A stretch of 64,000 bases of DNA. It comes from Candidatus Gastranaerophilales bacterium. Lineage in GTDB: Bacteria > Cyanobacteriota > Vampirovibrionia > Gastranaerophilales > Gastranaerophilaceae. The stretch covers positions 1 through 64,000 of the forward strand of contig CALUPH010000010.1 in NCBI GenBank assembly GCA_944322615.1. The letters are read 5' to 3'. The notes under the pieces are model-generated. The model saw only the letters and a list, made by a program, of their open reading frames with translations, was not told the origin of the DNA and made no database searches. The position numbers were made by a program, and so were the translations under genes. Below are positions 49,451 through 55,187 of the stretch, piece after piece (position 1 is the first letter of the stretch; every line of letters starts with the position of its first letter).

Positions 49451-50071
49451 ATGAGTATTTCTGCAATTAATTGTACACCAATAAAACCTCAAGCATCATT
49501 TGGTTCAGCACAAGGTGTTGATGAGGCGCAAAAAGTTTTAGAATTATCAAGACAATTAAATGATTCATTTACTTGCAATAAGTGTAGCGATGGGGATTGT
49601 GATTCTGAAAAAGTTACAAATAAAAATCCTCTTCAAACTGCTATTTCTGTTTTAGGTGCTTGTGCAACGATGTTTGCATTAGGTAAAGGTGCAGGTAAAG
49701 GTGTAGTTGCTTTAGCAAAGAAAGTTCCTGCTTCTGCAAAAGAAAATATATTAAATACTGGTAAAAAAGCTGCAGCTGCAATTTCTGAACAAGCTGCTAA
49801 ATTACCAAAGAATGAAAAAGTATCAACAATTTTATCAAACACTGTTGGTAAAGCATTTAACAGAGCAAAAGATGTTGTAATGAAAAATCCTGAAAAATCA
49901 TTTACAACTGCAGCAGGTGTTTTAGCCGCAACAACTTTAGTACCTTCTATTGCAACTGTTGATGGTAATAAAGATGGTGTTGCCGATATTGCTCAAAATA
50001 ATATTAATGCATATGCAAGTGCATTTAAAAAAGCTGAAATATTTTCAGATATGATTGATGCATTATCTTAA
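49451..50071 (+). CDS. Small SFG-leader protein with hydrophobic core and DxNxDGxxD loop (copy 1)
   Basis: 206 residues; AGAAAGG precedes the ATG. It starts MSISAINCTPIKPQASFGSA with no signal peptide. Then come RQLNDSF, a Cys-rich CNKCSDGDCD, a hydrophobic helix (QTAISVLGACATMFALGKGA), basic helices, and a C-terminus VDGNKDGVADIAQNNINAYA. DGNKDGVAD matches the calcium-loop pattern DxNxDGxxD of dockerin or thrombospondin type 3 repeats. The same start and end occur in the next gene, so these are paralogues. The function is unknown. Confidence 0.78.
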   Translation: MSISAINCTPIKPQASFGSAQGVDEAQKVLELSRQLNDSFTCNKCSDGDCDSEKVTNKNPLQTAISVLGACATMFALGKGAGKGVVALAKKVPASAKENILNTGKKAAAAISEQAAKLPKNEKVSTILSNTVGKAFNRAKDVVMKNPEKSFTTAAGVLAATTLVPSIATVDGNKDGVADIAQNNINAYASAFKKAEIFSDMIDALS

Positions 50072-50090
50072 TATTTCCAGAAATAATGTA

Positions 50091-50122
50091 AAAAAAGAGA
50101 ACTTTTTAAGTTCTCTTTTTAT
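50091..50122 (+). terminator. Intrinsic terminator between the two paralogues
   Basis: Stem AAAAAGAGAACTT/AAGTTCTCTTTTT with a 3-nt loop and T-tail, so the two paralogues are transcribed separately. Confidence 0.88.
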
Positions 50123-50131
50123 TTGTTAATT

Positions 50132-50168
50132 TTTCTTAATAATACGTCTAAAATAGGCAAAATTAAAT
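50132..50168 (+). promoter_or_regulatory. Conserved upstream box of the second small paralogue
   Basis: TTTCTTAATAA and AGGCAAAATT match the box before copy 1, here with CGTC as in the boxes before the 2.4-kb gene. Confidence 0.45.
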
Positions 50169-50218
50169 ATTGATTGCATTATATGAATTATAAAAGTCTC
50201 TTTTAGAAAGGTAAGAAT

Positions 50219-50833
50219 ATGAATATTTCTGCATCACAATCAATACCTGTTAAAGAACGTACTTCATTTGGTAAAGAATATCAAGTAGAAGATGTTGAAC
50301 ACGTTATGCAACTCACAAGGCAATTGAATGATAGTTTTCAAAAAACAGAAGAGCCTGAGCATAAATCAGTCGCTGGTATTTTTGCTTCAGTTGCAGGTGC
50401 AATATTAACAATGTTTATTTTAGGAAAGTGTGCTGCTTCAAAAGTTATGACAGCTTTCCCAGGTATATTTTCAAAGTTAGGTAATGGTATTAAAAAAGGT
50501 GCAAATGTTGTAAGAGATTTTTCTGATGATGTGGCAAAAGGTGTAAAATTGCAAAAAGGTGGAAAATATACAAAATTTGCAGGTGAGAAAGTTGCGCAAG
50601 CTGAGAATTTCTTAAGAAAAAATTATATAAGATTAAGAGATAAAGCAGGTGCTGAAAATTTAATTACTAATGCAGCAGGTTTAACTGCAGTTGCGGCAGT
50701 AGCCCCTGAAGTTATTTTTGTAGACGGAAATAATGATGGTGTTTCAGATATTGCACAAAAAAATGTAAATGCTTATAAAAATGCATTGAAGAATGTAGGT
50801 ATTGTATCTGAAATTGTAGAAGCACTTGCTTAG
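50219..50833 (+). CDS. Small SFG-leader protein with hydrophobic core and DxNxDGxxD loop (copy 2)
   Basis: 204 residues; AGAAAGG precedes the ATG. It shares with copy 1 the start (MNISASQSIPVKERTSFGKE), RQLNDSF, the central hydrophobic helix (VAGAILTMFILGKCAASKV) and the end VDGNNDGVSDIAQKNVNAYK. It lacks the Cys cluster. The middle is basic and diverged. The conserved ends with a variable middle suggest the ends do the shared job (targeting, calcium or partner binding). Confidence 0.78.
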   Translation: MNISASQSIPVKERTSFGKEYQVEDVEHVMQLTRQLNDSFQKTEEPEHKSVAGIFASVAGAILTMFILGKCAASKVMTAFPGIFSKLGNGIKKGANVVRDFSDDVAKGVKLQKGGKYTKFAGEKVAQAENFLRKNYIRLRDKAGAENLITNAAGLTAVAAVAPEVIFVDGNNDGVSDIAQKNVNAYKNALKNVGIVSEIVEALA

Positions 50834-50848
50834 ATGTAATTCATTAAT

Positions 50849-50880
50849 AAAAACTGACTACTTTTGTAGTCAGTTTTTTT
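50849..50880 (+). terminator. Intrinsic terminator after copy 2
   Basis: Perfect 13-bp stem AAAAACTGACTAC/GTAGTCAGTTTTT with a TTTT loop and further T. Confidence 0.92.
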
Positions 50881-51035
50881 GTTTATTTATTATAAGTATA
50901 AAAATTTAATAGAAAAACTCTTTTTTGTAAAAATGTGTATAAAACGTAAATATATAACGATTTGTGGAATAAGAATAAGGCTAAAATTATTGAATTAAAG
51001 TAAAATCTTTTTATTGTTTTCTATATTCATATTTT

Positions 51036-51103
51036 GTTGGGTTATGGGAAACCAGACATTTTTCACAAAATCAAAGATTTTGGAAAAAGCAGCCAAACCC
51101 AAC
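51036..51103 (+). repeat. 68-bp palindromic repeat, copy R1
   Basis: Ends are GTTGGGTT and AACCCAAC. The inner AAAATC-AAA-GATTTT and the pairs between fold into a long imperfect hairpin. The copy is open in two coding frames: plus ..GLWETRHFSQNQRFWKKQPN and minus RLGLAAFSKIFDFVKNVWFP. The 13 bp after it (CTACAGACTCCTA) also match the inverted copy R3. Confidence 0.85.
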
Positions 51104-51320
51104 CTACAGACTCCTAGAATGGTTTCAATTGTTAATATATGTAAATGTTATAATTTTTTGTAGTCTTTAAGTTTAACATTAGGTTGTTTTCAATAAATGT
51201 AATGATTTGAGGCTTTTTAAGCTAATTTTTAAATAAAAAAACAAAACAGGTATCATTATGTCTTAAAAGGAATATAGGCAAGTTATACAGCCGAATACTC
51301 AACAAATACGTGCTTAGCCA

Positions 51321-51506
51321 CTTGGCTATATTTACAAGATAGAGTAAAAAATAGTAAAATGGGTTATTAAAATTATAAAAAAGTTGAAAAATCATTTGAG
51401 AAAAAATAAAAGAAATAGGGAAGTGTACACACATTTCAATACAAACAAAGCAACATAGGTCATTCTATGCTGTTTTTGTTGCTGTATGGATGAAGAAGAA
51501 ATAGGT
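51321..51506 (+). ncRNA. 186-bp conserved leader, copy L1
   Basis: Ungapped match to 53071-53256 with 8 mismatches (178/186). It contains a hairpin at 51446-51478: CAAAGCA-A-CATAG pairs with CTATG-C-TGTTTTTG. One of the mismatches to L2 turns a G-C pair into G-U, keeping the stem. The T-run after the stem resembles an attenuator. It ends 13 bp before the ATG of the first paralogue. Confidence 0.5.
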
Positions 51507-51519
51507 AGAAAATTTAGTA

Positions 51520-52401
51520 ATGAGAAATATAAATAATGCATTGAAAACACCTCTTGGAAAGATTATAATAATCATTATAATTCTATTTTATCCCTATGGC
51601 GCAAATCTAATTGAAGGATTTAATAAATTTAGTTTTCAAGTTGCAAATTATTATATAATTGACCAATGTTTAAATATTTCAAATTATTATTCAAGAATAA
51701 CAAATAAGAATAATGATATTTCATATTATTTTAGAAATATATTAATAAATCAATATATTAATATCAAAAAATCACATGAAATGAATTTTTATAATTCAGT
51801 AGGTATTTTTTATTCTGTAACTAATGATTTTAAATTTCTATATAAATTAAATGAAGATAATGATAAATTAACATTAAAAGAAAAAGAACAATATTTTAAA
51901 TATAAAACACAGTTTTTATCAGAACTGTATGACTTATTAATGGAATATAAATTTAGATATCATTCTGTTAATGATTTTATGCATGCACGAAGTTGGCGAA
52001 ATAGTTGTGGATATAGAATACCAAGCAGAATATCTTTTTATCCAGAACTTGCTAGCATATATATTGAATTAAAAGCAAAAGATTTTCCGCAAGATAATAA
52101 AACGCTAAATGACTTAAAAAATATATATGAAACATATGATATAGTTTTTAATCAAGAACAAAAAGCATTTACAAGAAGTTATATATCTTTAGATACTGAT
52201 AGTTTAAACAAGAAACAATTTAACTATTGGTATCCATACTTTATACTGAATTATACTAGAAATATTATAATATTAAATCATATTTTGCACCCAGAAATAG
52301 ATATATGCAAAGAGTCTGATATTTGTAAAAATTATAAACAAATAGCTATAAAAATGAATAAAATAGATCCTAAAATAATAGCTATTATTGAAAGTATGTA
52401 G
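51520..52401 (+). CDS. Membrane-anchored protein of unknown function, island paralogue A
   Basis: 293 residues. One N-terminal span (GKIIIIIIILFYPYGANLI) anchors a helical, Tyr-rich, likely extracytoplasmic domain. Conserved with paralogue B: YYFRNILINQYI, FYNSVGIFYS, YKTQFLSELYDLLMEY, YRIPSRISFYPELA, and the end HPEIDICKESDIC with two cysteines. I do not recognise the family. AGGT lies 13 nt before the ATG. The TAG stop abuts a short GTTGGG palindrome. Confidence 0.75.
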   Translation: MRNINNALKTPLGKIIIIIIILFYPYGANLIEGFNKFSFQVANYYIIDQCLNISNYYSRITNKNNDISYYFRNILINQYINIKKSHEMNFYNSVGIFYSVTNDFKFLYKLNEDNDKLTLKEKEQYFKYKTQFLSELYDLLMEYKFRYHSVNDFMHARSWRNSCGYRIPSRISFYPELASIYIELKAKDFPQDNKTLNDLKNIYETYDIVFNQEQKAFTRSYISLDTDSLNKKQFNYWYPYFILNYTRNIIILNHILHPEIDICKESDICKNYKQIAIKMNKIDPKIIAIIESM

Positions 52402-52419
52402 GTTGGGTTTTAACCCAAC
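52402..52419. repeat. Mini-palindrome, ends of the 68-bp repeat fused
   Basis: GTTGGGTTTTAACCCAAC: the two 8-bp ends of the repeat with the interior missing. It begins at the last base of paralogue A's stop codon (preceded by GTAG, as in R3 and inverted R1). Confidence 0.65.
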
Positions 52420-52914
52420 AGTAAAACAGTAAAATAGCAAAATGAAAATCATAAAATAAAAATTGTTAAATAAAAACTAGGTAATGTTGAAGATTGAAAA
52501 ATTAATACTTATGAATTAATTCATGAATAAAAAATGTTACAGAATATTATGGTCTTAGAGTGAACAAAAATATGGTTTAAAAACTACTATAAATCTGCGT
52601 TTGAGGTTGTGTGTACTATTCGAAAAATCAAATTGTAACATAACTTTAGAATGAGTCTAAAAGTAATATAGATATAGCCAAAAGGGTTAAATTTATAAAG
52701 TTTATAAATCCAGTTAGTTATATACAATAATGAAAAAAAATTGTAATATGGAGTATAACAAAAATTTTAAGAATTAAGATGAAAAAGATTTTAATTTTTA
52801 AAATAAGAGAGGGAAGTTGAAGAGATATTTTGCTTTCTAAAAAAGAAGATAGAGCTGATGTGGTAAAGACCATATCAGCGTTTTGCGTTTTAAGACATTT
52901 AAAAGGATTATACG
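52420..52914. other. Gene-free stretch inside the island
   Basis: About 500 bp, very AT-rich, no supported gene. It contains a terminator-like hairpin near its end. It may be the remains of decayed sequence. Confidence 0.6.
52854..52888 (+). terminator. Terminator or attenuator before the 50-residue ORF
   Basis: 11-bp stem GCTGATGTGGT/ACCATATCAGC (one G-U) with an AAAG loop, followed by GTTTTGCGTTTT. It lies 25 bp before a small ORF with a Shine-Dalgarno. Confidence 0.6.
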
Positions 52915-53067
52915 ATGAGTGACGAAAATAAGAATAAAAATAATCAAGATGAAAATCAAAATAGACAAGAATGCAATAAAATCTGGTGGAAAAATGTTGT
53001 GTTATGGGAAACCAGACATTTTTCACAAAATCAAAGATTTTGGAAAAAGCAGCCAAACCCAACATAA
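52915..53067 (+). CDS. 50-residue ORF whose second half is the palindromic repeat
   Basis: AAAGGA lies 9 nt before the ATG. The first 27 residues (MSDENKNKNNQDENQNRQEC, then NKIWWKN) are hydrophilic. Residues 28-50 are encoded by repeat R2 and read VVLWETRHFSQNQRFWKKQP. A decayed relative with the same MSDENKN start lies inverted next to R3. It could be a real small protein carried with the repeat, or a gene fragment truncated by it. Confidence 0.4.
   Translation: MSDENKNKNNQDENQNRQECNKIWWKNVVLWETRHFSQNQRFWKKQPNPT
52996..53063 (+). repeat. 68-bp palindromic repeat, copy R2
   Basis: Differs from R1 at the fifth base (GTTGT instead of GTTGG) and is otherwise the same across the element. It supplies the C-terminal half of the 50-residue ORF. 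Confidence 0.85.
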
Positions 53068-53070
53068 AGG

Positions 53071-53256
53071 CTTGGCTATGTTTACAAGATAGAGTAAAAA
53101 ATAGTAAAATAGGTTATTAAAATTATAAAAAAGTTGAAAAATCATTTGAGTACAAATAAAAGAAATAGGGAAGTGTACACACATTTCAATACAAACAAAG
53201 CAACATAGGTCAATCTATGCTGCTTTTGTTGTTGTATGGATTAAGAAGAAATAGGT
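53071..53256 (+). ncRNA. 186-bp conserved leader, copy L2
   Basis: 178/186 identical to L1 with no gaps. The hairpin at 53196-53228 pairs CAAAGCA-A-CATAG with CTATG-C-TGCTTTTG. It ends directly at the first possible ATG of paralogue B. Confidence 0.5.
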
Positions 53257-54273
53257 ATGAAAATTATAATGAACAATAGGAATAATAAAAGTTTGTGGAA
53301 AAAAATTAGAAAATTAATAAAAGACAAGATAAAACAACATAAAGAGCAAGTAGAAATTGAAAAGCATCTTCCACTTGATTTGAAATTAAAAATTGGACTT
53401 ACCAGACCATCCGGAATAATGATAATTATATTTGCTTTTATCTTTTATCAGTATATTAGTGATTATACAACAGAGTTTAGTAATCTTAGATTTAATTCTT
53501 ATGTCGCAAAATATCATATGTTGGACGAATGTTTAGATATTTCAAATAAATATTCTAAAATCATAAGAAGAAATTCTGTTATTTCATATTTTTTTAGGAA
53601 TATATTAATGAATAATTACATAATTGCAAAAGAAACTTTTGAAAAAGATTTTTATAATTCAAGTGGTTTGTTTTTTTCAATATGTCGTGATTATAAACTT
53701 GCACAATCTATACACACAAAAAACAAAGAAAATCTTACAGAACATGAAATTGAACAATTTTTAAATTATAAACAACAATTTTTAACAGAATTATATTCAT
53801 TGCTTATGGAATATCGAGATAGAAAACATTCTATTTCTAATTTTATTCGTCTTGGATATTGGAGAGAAAATGTAAAGTATAGAATTCCTAACCGAATTAC
53901 ATTCTATCCAGAATTAGCAGTTTTATATCTTGCTACAAAAGAACATTTTAAAATTAATGATGAAACTCTCAATGATTTTAAATACATATATGATACTTTA
54001 AATATTGTTTATAATCAAGAAAAAGAAGCTAATACAAGAAGTTACAGAACTTTTGTTAATAATTATTCAGGAGTTGATCAAAACCAGTTTAAAACTTTTT
54101 ATCCGATTTTTATTCGTGAATATGCACGTTTAATTATTCTTTTAAACAATGATTTACATCCTGAAACAGATATATGCAAAGAATCTGATATCTGTGAAGA
54201 ATATATTAGTGCAGCTGAAAAATATAAATTTGAAGCAGATTCTAAAGTACTTAGTATTATAAACAAGAAATAA
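53257..54273 (+). CDS. Membrane-anchored protein of unknown function, island paralogue B
   Basis: 338 residues, or 334 from the second ATG (MNNRNNKS), which aligns with the start of paralogue A. A basic cytosolic segment of about 45 residues precedes the single span (SGIMIIIFAFIFYQYI); paralogue A lacks it. The outer domain keeps FRNILMNNYI, FYNSSGLFFS, YKQQFLTELYSLLMEY, YRIPNRITFYPELA and HPETDICKESDIC. It is probably co-transcribed with the next gene, 12 nt away. Confidence 0.77.
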   Translation: MKIIMNNRNNKSLWKKIRKLIKDKIKQHKEQVEIEKHLPLDLKLKIGLTRPSGIMIIIFAFIFYQYISDYTTEFSNLRFNSYVAKYHMLDECLDISNKYSKIIRRNSVISYFFRNILMNNYIIAKETFEKDFYNSSGLFFSICRDYKLAQSIHTKNKENLTEHEIEQFLNYKQQFLTELYSLLMEYRDRKHSISNFIRLGYWRENVKYRIPNRITFYPELAVLYLATKEHFKINDETLNDFKYIYDTLNIVYNQEKEANTRSYRTFVNNYSGVDQNQFKTFYPIFIREYARLIILLNNDLHPETDICKESDICEEYISAAEKYKFEADSKVLSIINKK

Positions 54274-54285
54274 TAAAGGAGTTTT

Positions 54286-55059
54286 ATGGCAAATACAACA
54301 TTATGTGGATATGTTTCCTATGGAACAAATGTAGAAAAAAATGAGGATGATTCTGAACTATATCTTGATTGTCAAATAAATCTTGACAATAATGGTACAG
54401 AAAAGAACACTAATTCATTCCCAACAAAAGACGCTGTATTAAATGGAATAGAATTAATATTAGATGATAGTTTTCATAAGGATTTAGAAGACTTTCTTGA
54501 CCTTACACCACAGGAAAAAGATTATCTTTTGAAAGAAGCAGAATCATTTTTTAAAGATTCAAAAAATAGAAAACTTTACAAAAATCTTCCAGATGTAAAA
54601 AATGAAAAAGAAGCAATAGAACTTGGTAAAAAAGCTGTATATAACATGTTTCTAAAAGAACTTACAAGTAGAAAAGTTCAAAGAATAATGAAAAAATCTG
54701 GTAAGTGCGTTGACGATGTAAATAAATTGCTAAATTCTGATAACATTAATGATAAAACTGTTAGAAGACTTCTTTCTACAATAAAAAATTATGATTCTTA
54801 TACTGGTCTTAAAATAGATAAGGAAATTATAAAACTAAATGATAGTAAAATTTTCAAACATCAAGTTAATGATTCGCTAAAATTAGATACAGATATCAAA
54901 AAAATATTTGGAAAAGATATATCACAAATAAATTTTACTAAAAACATAAAAATAAATTTAAAAGCTGTAAAACCAATTTTAAATAGTTGTAAATCAAAGG
55001 GGAATCTCATAAGTTTAGCAATAGGAGTCTGTAGGTTGGGTTTGGCTGCTTTTTCCTAA
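54286..55059 (+). CDS. Protein of unknown function with repeat-derived C-terminus
   Basis: 257 residues; AAAGGAG precedes the ATG. The body is hydrophilic and helical (DAVLNGIELILDDSFHKDLE, then EKDYLLKEAESFF, GKKAVYNMFLKEL) with no known domain and no signal peptide. The last residues IGVCRLGLAAFS are encoded by palindromic repeat R3 and its flank. In R1 and R2 this frame continues KIFDFVKNVWFP; here AAA has become TAA. The native C-terminus was probably replaced by the insertion. Confidence 0.7.
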   Translation: MANTTLCGYVSYGTNVEKNEDDSELYLDCQINLDNNGTEKNTNSFPTKDAVLNGIELILDDSFHKDLEDFLDLTPQEKDYLLKEAESFFKDSKNRKLYKNLPDVKNEKEAIELGKKAVYNMFLKELTSRKVQRIMKKSGKCVDDVNKLLNSDNINDKTVRRLLSTIKNYDSYTGLKIDKEIIKLNDSKIFKHQVNDSLKLDTDIKKIFGKDISQINFTKNIKINLKAVKPILNSCKSKGNLISLAIGVCRLGLAAFS

Positions 55060-55102
55060 ATCTTTGATTTTGTGAAAAATGTATGGTTTCCCATAACCCA
55101 AC
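55035..55102 (-). repeat. 68-bp palindromic repeat, inverted copy R3
   Basis: Reverse complement of R1 with two differences over 68 bp; the match to R1 extends 13 bp further into the preceding gene (55022-55034). With R1 it brackets a 4-kb segment as inverted repeats. Confidence 0.85.
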
Positions 55103-55154
55103 AAACTTACACAAATTTTTATTGTATTCAGGTATATTATGATTTTCTTCTTTA

Positions 55155-55187
55155 TTATTTTCTAATATTCTTGTTCTCGTCACTCAT
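55155..55187 (-). pseudogene. Decayed, inverted relative of the 50-residue ORF
   Basis: On the minus strand AGGAAAATTTT precedes ATG and the frame reads MSDENKNIRK then stop. Downstream bases up to R3 still resemble the region between the ORF start and R2 (for example GAATACAATAAAA against GAATGCAATAAAA). So a block of about 150 bp, ORF start plus palindrome, exists twice in opposite orientations. Confidence 0.5.

Follow-up and report, generated by a model that had tools for sequence, protein, structure and literature searches.

GTAG-headed REPs with a nested 50-nt loop module in a Candidatus Gastranaerophilales genome

The window considered here is a stretch of 64,000 nucleotides (nt) of DNA from Candidatus Gastranaerophilales bacterium (contig CALUPH010000010.1 of assembly GCA_944322615.1, positions 1 to 64,000), and our subject is a small palindrome that recurs among membrane-protein genes in its last quarter. 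What kind of element is it, and how do such elements come to lie where they lie? A sequence-only reading had taken it for a 68-bp mobile palindrome, akin to those of Rickettsia, that reads as protein and supplies genes with their C-termini. To judge from its form, it is something else: a GTAG-headed repetitive extragenic palindrome (REP) of a Candidatus Gastranaerophilales genus, not a Rickettsia-type element. The copies in the window, with the loop insert that most of them carry, are these:

51035 to 51107, minus strand: R1, a long GTAG-REP of 73 nt, with its GTAG head at 51107-51104 and flanking AGTCT at 51112-51108
51045 to 51094, minus strand: the loop module of R1, a 50-nt two-hairpin insert, its limits set by comparisons of filled and empty loops
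52398 to 52420, plus strand: a short GTAG-REP with an empty loop, GTAGGTTGGGTTTTAACCCAACA, whose TAG is the stop codon of the gene at 51520-52401
52995 to 53067, minus strand: R2, a long GTAG-REP with its head decayed to TTAT, one mismatch in the outer arm and its loop module at 53005-53054
55031 to 55103, plus strand: R3, a long GTAG-REP with flanking AGTCT at 55026-55030 and its loop module at 55044-55093; the same copy is found in the sister species G001

The three full copies first described are indeed there, R1, R2 and R3 being mutually 95-98% identical, with R3 inverted relative to the other two. Read on the GTAG strand, the long form is 73 nt (GTAGGTTGGGTTTGGCTGCTTTTTCCAAAATCTTTGATTTTGTGAAAAATGTCTGGTTTCCCATAACCCAACA) and not 68 bp, a GTAG head outside the arms and a terminal A having been overlooked, and what had been called a collapsed copy at 52402 is simply the plain 23-nt REP, namely GTAG, an 8-bp stem and a 2-nt loop. 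The ends had also been said to form a hairpin. R1, R3 and the short copy bear this out, with z values of about -3.1 to -3.3 against shuffled sequence, and R2 does so more weakly (just -1.5). Rfam 15 has no match over any of the REP copies at E<=1, and a known RNA or riboswitch was rejected on this ground.

We call the palindrome a GTAG-tagged REP because that class is defined by an unpaired GTAG head that passes directly into a perfect stem (PMC3733652). GTAG is the majority base at each head position (58-65 of 66 copies), and the family consensus is GTAGGTTGGGTT...AACCCAACA. The plain form, with its 8 bp of stem and 23 nt in all, lies within the usual stem (6-13 bp) and size (20-40 bp); the long form exceeds that size, the excess being the loop module. 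The Coxiella REP even starts with the same GTAGGTTGGG (PMC2817692). The unpaired head, the short perfect stem, the location behind genes, the occasional copy inside an open reading frame (ORF), N- and C-termini included, and a REP-associated tyrosine transposase (RAYT) that has one REP upstream of it and a second, inverted, downstream are all features of the described GTAG-tagged REPs (PMC3733652, PMC2817692). What differs here is a low copy number, a 50-nt two-hairpin module in most loops, a constant AG three bases outside the GTAG, and the partition of a paralogous membrane-protein family into one-gene units.

Nor are the copies confined to this locus. The window genome (1.96 Mb in 29 contigs) has 13 long copies, and it has the palindrome GTTGGGTT-(0 to 30 nt)-AACCCAAC at six loci, where the reversed control pattern gives zero; long copies number 7 to 16 in each of the sister species G001, G006, G011, G018, G030 and G059, and within the genus (41 genomes) a match at E<=0.001 occurs in 17. 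All of these genomes are drafts, mostly metagenome-assembled genomes (MAGs), whose contigs often end near REPs, so that the copy numbers are minima; the set of long copies was selected by similarity to R1, and the independence of flanks was judged from sequence, without phylogeny. The REP has no match in the phage and plasmid records searched, nor has the core of the loop module an exact match in the viral contigs searched, and an origin in phages or plasmids was rejected on these grounds.

A further regularity lies just outside the head. Counting from GTAG in 66 independent long copies, A stands at -5 in 65 and G at -4 in 57, followed by T, by C or A, and by T, while positions -12 to -6 are at background; the junction can thus be written AG|NNN-GTAG. 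The AG is present in 56 of 66 long copies and 27 of 31 short ones, against a local background of 4.4%. Comparison with element-free relatives, which the sequence-only reading had proposed, bears this out on the left side: for seven copies a REP-free counterpart exists in which the shared sequence ends in AG (AGT where the T is native), and the REP-bearing side continues with TMT-GTAG. These are G006_C4_137770 (against the window gene at 54286), G006_C4_135243 (against G011), G006_C29_402, G001_C26_21687, G001_C26_20111, G018_C7_98187 (where just 22 nt match) and G006_C15_29581 (against G058). For G059_C8_41971 there is one more counterpart, the eighth, which matches at 83% and itself bears AGTCT, and two weaker ones do not end in AG (G000_C2_16981, 27 nt; G000_C4_128773, which diverges earlier). 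On the right side, no locus gave a complete two-sided site empty of the REP alone; in a joined-flank search at G011_C17_15073, the matching right flank in G001 proved to have a decayed REP too, with a different left side. The right-hand end of the REP is therefore defined by comparison of copies alone. At that same G011 site (L153 2414-2546), a gene that by eye resembles D-Tyr-tRNA deacylase is cut after about 41 codons by a long REP whose sequence is that of R1.

The window genome also encodes the kind of enzyme that goes with such REPs. Its one intact RAYT scores 164.7 bits on NF047646 (REP_Tyr_transpos; cut-off 80) and below the cut-off on the IS200 model, and its sole match in the PDB is the E. 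coli TnpA-REP 4ER8, in an alignment that spans both the HUH and the DYI-NPVKHG stretches, the latter covering the conserved tyrosine region. Protein family, conserved motifs and a GTAG hairpin as presumed substrate are all shared with TnpA-REP (PMC8266576). The intact gene lies at a contig end on C7, with the same 5' flank, REP tail included, as a copy on C2, and with a decayed inverted REP downstream (18 of 23 bases); the C2 copy, also at a contig end (L050 4578-4819, G000), is an internally deleted RAYT between two inverted short REPs, with a plain REP upstream, and a further decayed copy lies on C6. In the window genome, then, the flanking REPs are read from two contig ends, the upstream one on C2 and the downstream one on C7, and the arrangement is clear in G037 and G043. 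Inverted GTAGGTTGGG hairpins with stems of their own flank the RAYTs of those two genomes, which belong to other genera, and of G032 in this genus; a RAYT flanked by inverted REPs is the arrangement described in PMC2817692. In G030 (C8, L100 around 1110-1745), a RAYT is bordered by another inverted repeat, GTAGGGTGCAATTTTTTGCACC.

What, then, sits in the loop? A long copy is a plain REP plus an exact 50-nt module, GGGTTT^50 nt^TAACCC: when short and long copies with a common downstream sequence are aligned (GTAGGTTGGGTTT, 50 nt present or absent, TAACCCAACA), the module is the sole difference, and no loop base is lost or duplicated. The boundary between filled and empty is identical in three contexts, namely downstream of the window copy at 52398, in the 5' flank of the RAYT and in the leader of the membrane-protein family, where the surroundings are 90-95% identical. 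By inspection, two adjoining hairpins make up the module, a long one (GAC...GTC) and a small one (YGG-TTTY-CCR). This proposed structure pairs 89.8% of cells (slid versions, 34-55%), and its covariation score was matched by just 1 of 500 shuffles; three pairs are changed on both sides, which is not above the shuffle level. An end resembling that of an insertion sequence (IS), TGAAGTGTACCCCAAAAAGCGGAC..., occurs in or beside the loop of the same REP (L180 2706-2746, L181 3878, L104 around 1939, L136), placed as if an IS also targets REP loops.

The module turned out to have a second host. A scan for its exact inner core, with one genome per species, returned 55 stretches, among them 30 new core copies (in nine further assemblies) without the GTTGGGTT stem; nearly all 30 have TGTCAYCCTGAACTTGTTT or close variants before the module and CAGGRTCT after it, and several of the same assemblies hold a module-free version, GTCAYCCTGAACTTGTTTCAGGRTCT. 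The module thus lies in the loop of an unrelated TGTC/CCTGAA REP of sister genera. By its TGTC end and its ATCCTGAA-type stem, this host belongs to the CGTC class (PMC3733652): copies of the TGTCATCCTGAACTTGTTTCAGGATCT type, with and without the module, have the (C/T)GTC end and AT at the start of the stem, and many copies have AC there instead. What sets it apart from the described CGTC-tagged REPs is a loop filled by the same 50-nt module as in the GTAG-REP. When 89 genomes of the order were searched with a composite query for the second host, 17 of the 32 genera gave matches, some of them to the outer REP alone. In genus g30 (L290, L291, L293, L294), the long hairpin of the module occurs in a third surrounding sequence (TCTAATCTAGTGTCG...TCACCTTTGNCTT...).

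Long REPs also parcel out genes. Between neighbouring long REPs of the same orientation we found 16 segments, most of them containing a single ORF that starts 165-180 nt past the GTAG, often with MTDENKN, and the one-gene units are mostly 1.4-1.6 kb. Such REP-bounded arrays (L046 4774-7752, L047 5433-8495, L141 1040-7320, L123) encode mostly membrane proteins with the common MTDENKN leader, and their order and content vary between sister species. Apart from Kelch repeats in one protein and weak sub-cut-off matches, array genes have no match in Pfam or NCBIfam. One unit (G000 C2_15504) recurs as G018 C8_96211 and G001 C31_2531, 97-98% identical and with different neighbours; most of another (G000 C4_130297) matches, at 98%, a segment that lies elsewhere in the chromosome of G011. 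A segment of G058 C10 (L203) is 99.3% identical to the body of G006 C15_28093 (L133), a 1.2-kb array segment. Measured against FolP of the window genome, that of G058 has only 84% identity and that of G006 98%, and the shared segment suggests a recent transfer.

Putting these observations together, how might such repeats have spread? The RAYT of the same genome, a single-strand Y1/HUH transposase, would move GTAG-REPs; its cleavage and joining at the head would create the AG junctions; REP loops, that of the unrelated CGTC-class REP included, would have gained the 50-nt module as a separate event; and homologous recombination between 73-nt copies would then reshuffle the neighbours. Where a head has landed inside a gene, the gene is truncated, and the REP incidentally provides its stop or last residues. 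Taken jointly (RAYT-moved GTAG-REPs, AG head junctions, reshuffling by recombination and a separately acquired module), we regard this account as probable.

Several points weigh against it, and they deserve to be taken together. Both the mobility and the RAYT as its cause are putative; no RAYT was found in the draft assemblies of the REP-rich G001, G006 and G018. The 13 long copies are few against the more than 100 of classical REPs, and the window genome lacks the high copy number seen for GTAG-tagged REPs in many genomes; low-copy REPs are also tabulated in PMC2817692, high copy number being usual and not strictly defining. The junction falls after AG, 3 nt before GTAG, whereas TnpA-REP enzymes in vitro cut CT or CA near the GTAG hairpin (PMC8266576), a place similar and not identical; the tie between the junctions and the RAYT of the window genome is presumed. 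The scan of other genomes used only the exact core of the module, and a cross-genome check of the AG rule fell away because the new core copies lie nearly all in CCTGAA REPs, which is what revealed the second host; AG stands at the corresponding position in 0 of those 30 copies, and the AG rule is therefore limited to the GTAG family. RNAalifold gave a different, weak consensus structure for the module, the proposed one having been specified by hand. The sequence of most regions comes from MAG contigs, which often stop close to a REP. Finally, in 4 of 10 pairs orthologous on the left, the left half of the REP is identical and the right half different, and recombination within REPs therefore explains part of the shuffling without any transposase.

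Could recombination explain all of it? On that explanation the REPs are fossils without current transposition, and every rearrangement stems from homologous recombination of the RecA type, acting on the 73-nt repeats and on the conserved 5' regions of the paralog array. Mosaic REPs with an internal crossover (G018_C15_28590, and the left-orthologous pairs just mentioned that differ in the right half alone), the 100-200 nt held in common on the tail side and the drafts lacking a RAYT speak for it. Where both flanks of a REP are orthologous (13 pairs), the REPs are identical or nearly so; where only one flank is, there are mosaics and also REPs identical up to the GTAG, and therefore both recombination within the REP and joining at the head have to be considered. 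Recombination leaves unaccounted for the heads joined, with a break after AG, to DNA whose counterpart in a sister genome has no REP, and a REP identical up to its GTAG with an unrelated left neighbour (G001_C53_6092 against G011_C169_2715). We consider a purely fossil family unlikely, and we keep to RAYT-driven movement with recombination added.

The module poses its own choice. A REP family with a long structured loop may have been inherited vertically, the plain REP being a deletion product; long-form relatives of 75-90% identity do occur in several species of the genus, and GTAG families with loop-length variants are documented (PMC3733652). This, too, seems to us improbable, given that many other genera have the same module in a REP whose stem is unrelated, that the plain REP is what flanks the RAYT in other genera, and that the module boundaries are exact across three contexts. 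A bolder proposal is that the 50-nt module is an independent mobile element, among the smallest known, which would enter the loops of REP hairpins, leaving no target duplication, and would have spread across Gastranaerophilales into at least two REP classes unrelated to each other (GTAG and CGTC) as a parasite of selfish DNA, its host REP serving in turn as a boundary for the exchange of one-gene units. We put this forward tentatively, as a possibility that we would not yet bet on.

What of the genes next to the REPs? Those in the window are the following:

50879 to 50998, plus strand: 3' remnant of a glycosyltransferase gene, full-length beside the counterparts of R1 in G006 and G059
51520 to 52401, plus strand: membrane-protein paralog, 293 aa, ending at the short REP
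52915 to 53067, plus strand: small ORF, a truncated gene in which the N-terminal leader of the MSDENKN...WWKN family runs into R2 and stops there
53257 to 54273, plus strand: 338-aa paralog of the gene at 51520, in the REP-bounded region
54286 to 55059, plus strand: gene with codons 249-257 and stop from R3 (CRLGLAAFS, then the stop)
55104 to 55187, minus strand: decayed MSDENKN leader abutting the tail of R3 (82% identity, tblastn fragments)

Gene 3' ends are indeed preferred. Of 71 independent copies, 42 have an ORF that is 90 codons or longer, runs toward the head and ends either within the REP or no more than 150 nt before the head, whereas 7.7% of random positions do. This also fits the mostly intergenic placement close behind genes that is typical of GTAG-REPs. 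The idea of a mobile palindrome favouring 3' ends therefore stands as to the repeat, spread through this genome and its sister species, and as to its preference; its mobility we can only suppose.

Is the palindrome, then, under selection for being read as protein and for providing genes with C-termini, in the manner of the Rickettsia palindromic elements, which are likewise small palindromes in ORFs? Taken one at a time, the cases in the window were read correctly: R3 does give the gene at 54286 its last residues, and the short copy does provide the stop of the gene at 51520-52401. The long form has four of six frames open (shuffle P = 0.009), and not just the one per strand first noticed. In two intact ORFs (488 and 481 aa), moreover, the plain REP is translated in frame to GLKPNLRT, with a charged leader on one side and a membrane helix on the other; many of their paralogs have partial REP traces or none. 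Yet a stop inside the REP or at its TAG occurs in only 3 of 71 copies, against 2.9% in the control. The supply of C-termini is therefore incidental, and a coding palindrome as the rule was rejected on this count of 71 copies, the isolated in-frame cases amounting to no clear tendency. The small ORF at 52915-53067 does read into R2, as had been said, but it is truncated rather than fused, its leader and REP tail both being homologous to intact paralogs; in G006, the version of the gene at 54286 is cut 357 bp earlier, its stop being the TAG of GTAG. RPE-4 and RPE-6, finally, belong to the CGTC class (PMC3733652), whereas the head here is GTAG with a matching RAYT. All told, a Rickettsia-like coding element is very unlikely. 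Least credible of all is an integron attC site with its cassette array: the 7-bp core motifs of attC are indeed present at the ends, and the REPs do separate one-gene units, but by inspection the motif order is reversed (GTTGGGT...ACCCAAC, that is, GTTRRRY first and RYYYAAC last, instead of RYYYAAC...GTTRRRY), and the GTAG head and RAYT association fit a REP.

Two further systems invite comparison. IS1397, ISKpn1 and IS621 insert into REPs (PMC1525189), but they are full IS with transposase genes, whereas the module is 50 nt, non-coding and without target duplication. REPINs (PMC3116915) are RAYT-linked miniature elements that form long hairpins, as here, but they consist of two inverted REPs around a spacer in one hairpin, whereas the window copies are single REPs with an unrelated hairpin pair, not a REP, in the loop.

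A GTAG-REP with its RAYT is of a known kind; new are the nested loop module and the AG junction rule. The spread of REPs has been described as poorly understood (PMC8266576). With their fixed AG, the natural junctions provide one REP family linked to a RAYT with a rule of insertion that is concrete and can be tested, and they do so in a lineage whose REPs we found nowhere described in the literature searched. The common module links two large REP superfamilies, GTAG and CGTC, for which the literature searched made no mention of a shared part, and makes REP loops a niche for still smaller elements: it seems that selfish DNA here carries smaller selfish DNA. The REP-bounded units and their high identity between species suggest, in turn, that these repeats may organise the exchange of membrane-protein genes in gut bacteria.

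Two other features of the window may be recorded. Directly upstream of the paralogs at 51520 and 53257 lies a 196-nt repeat (51321-51516 and 53071-53266, 94% identical) that contains a small hairpin (CATAGGTCA-TCTATG) and is possibly a shared regulatory region. At 49451-50833 are two adjacent paralogous ORFs, of 206 and 204 aa, without a Pfam match.

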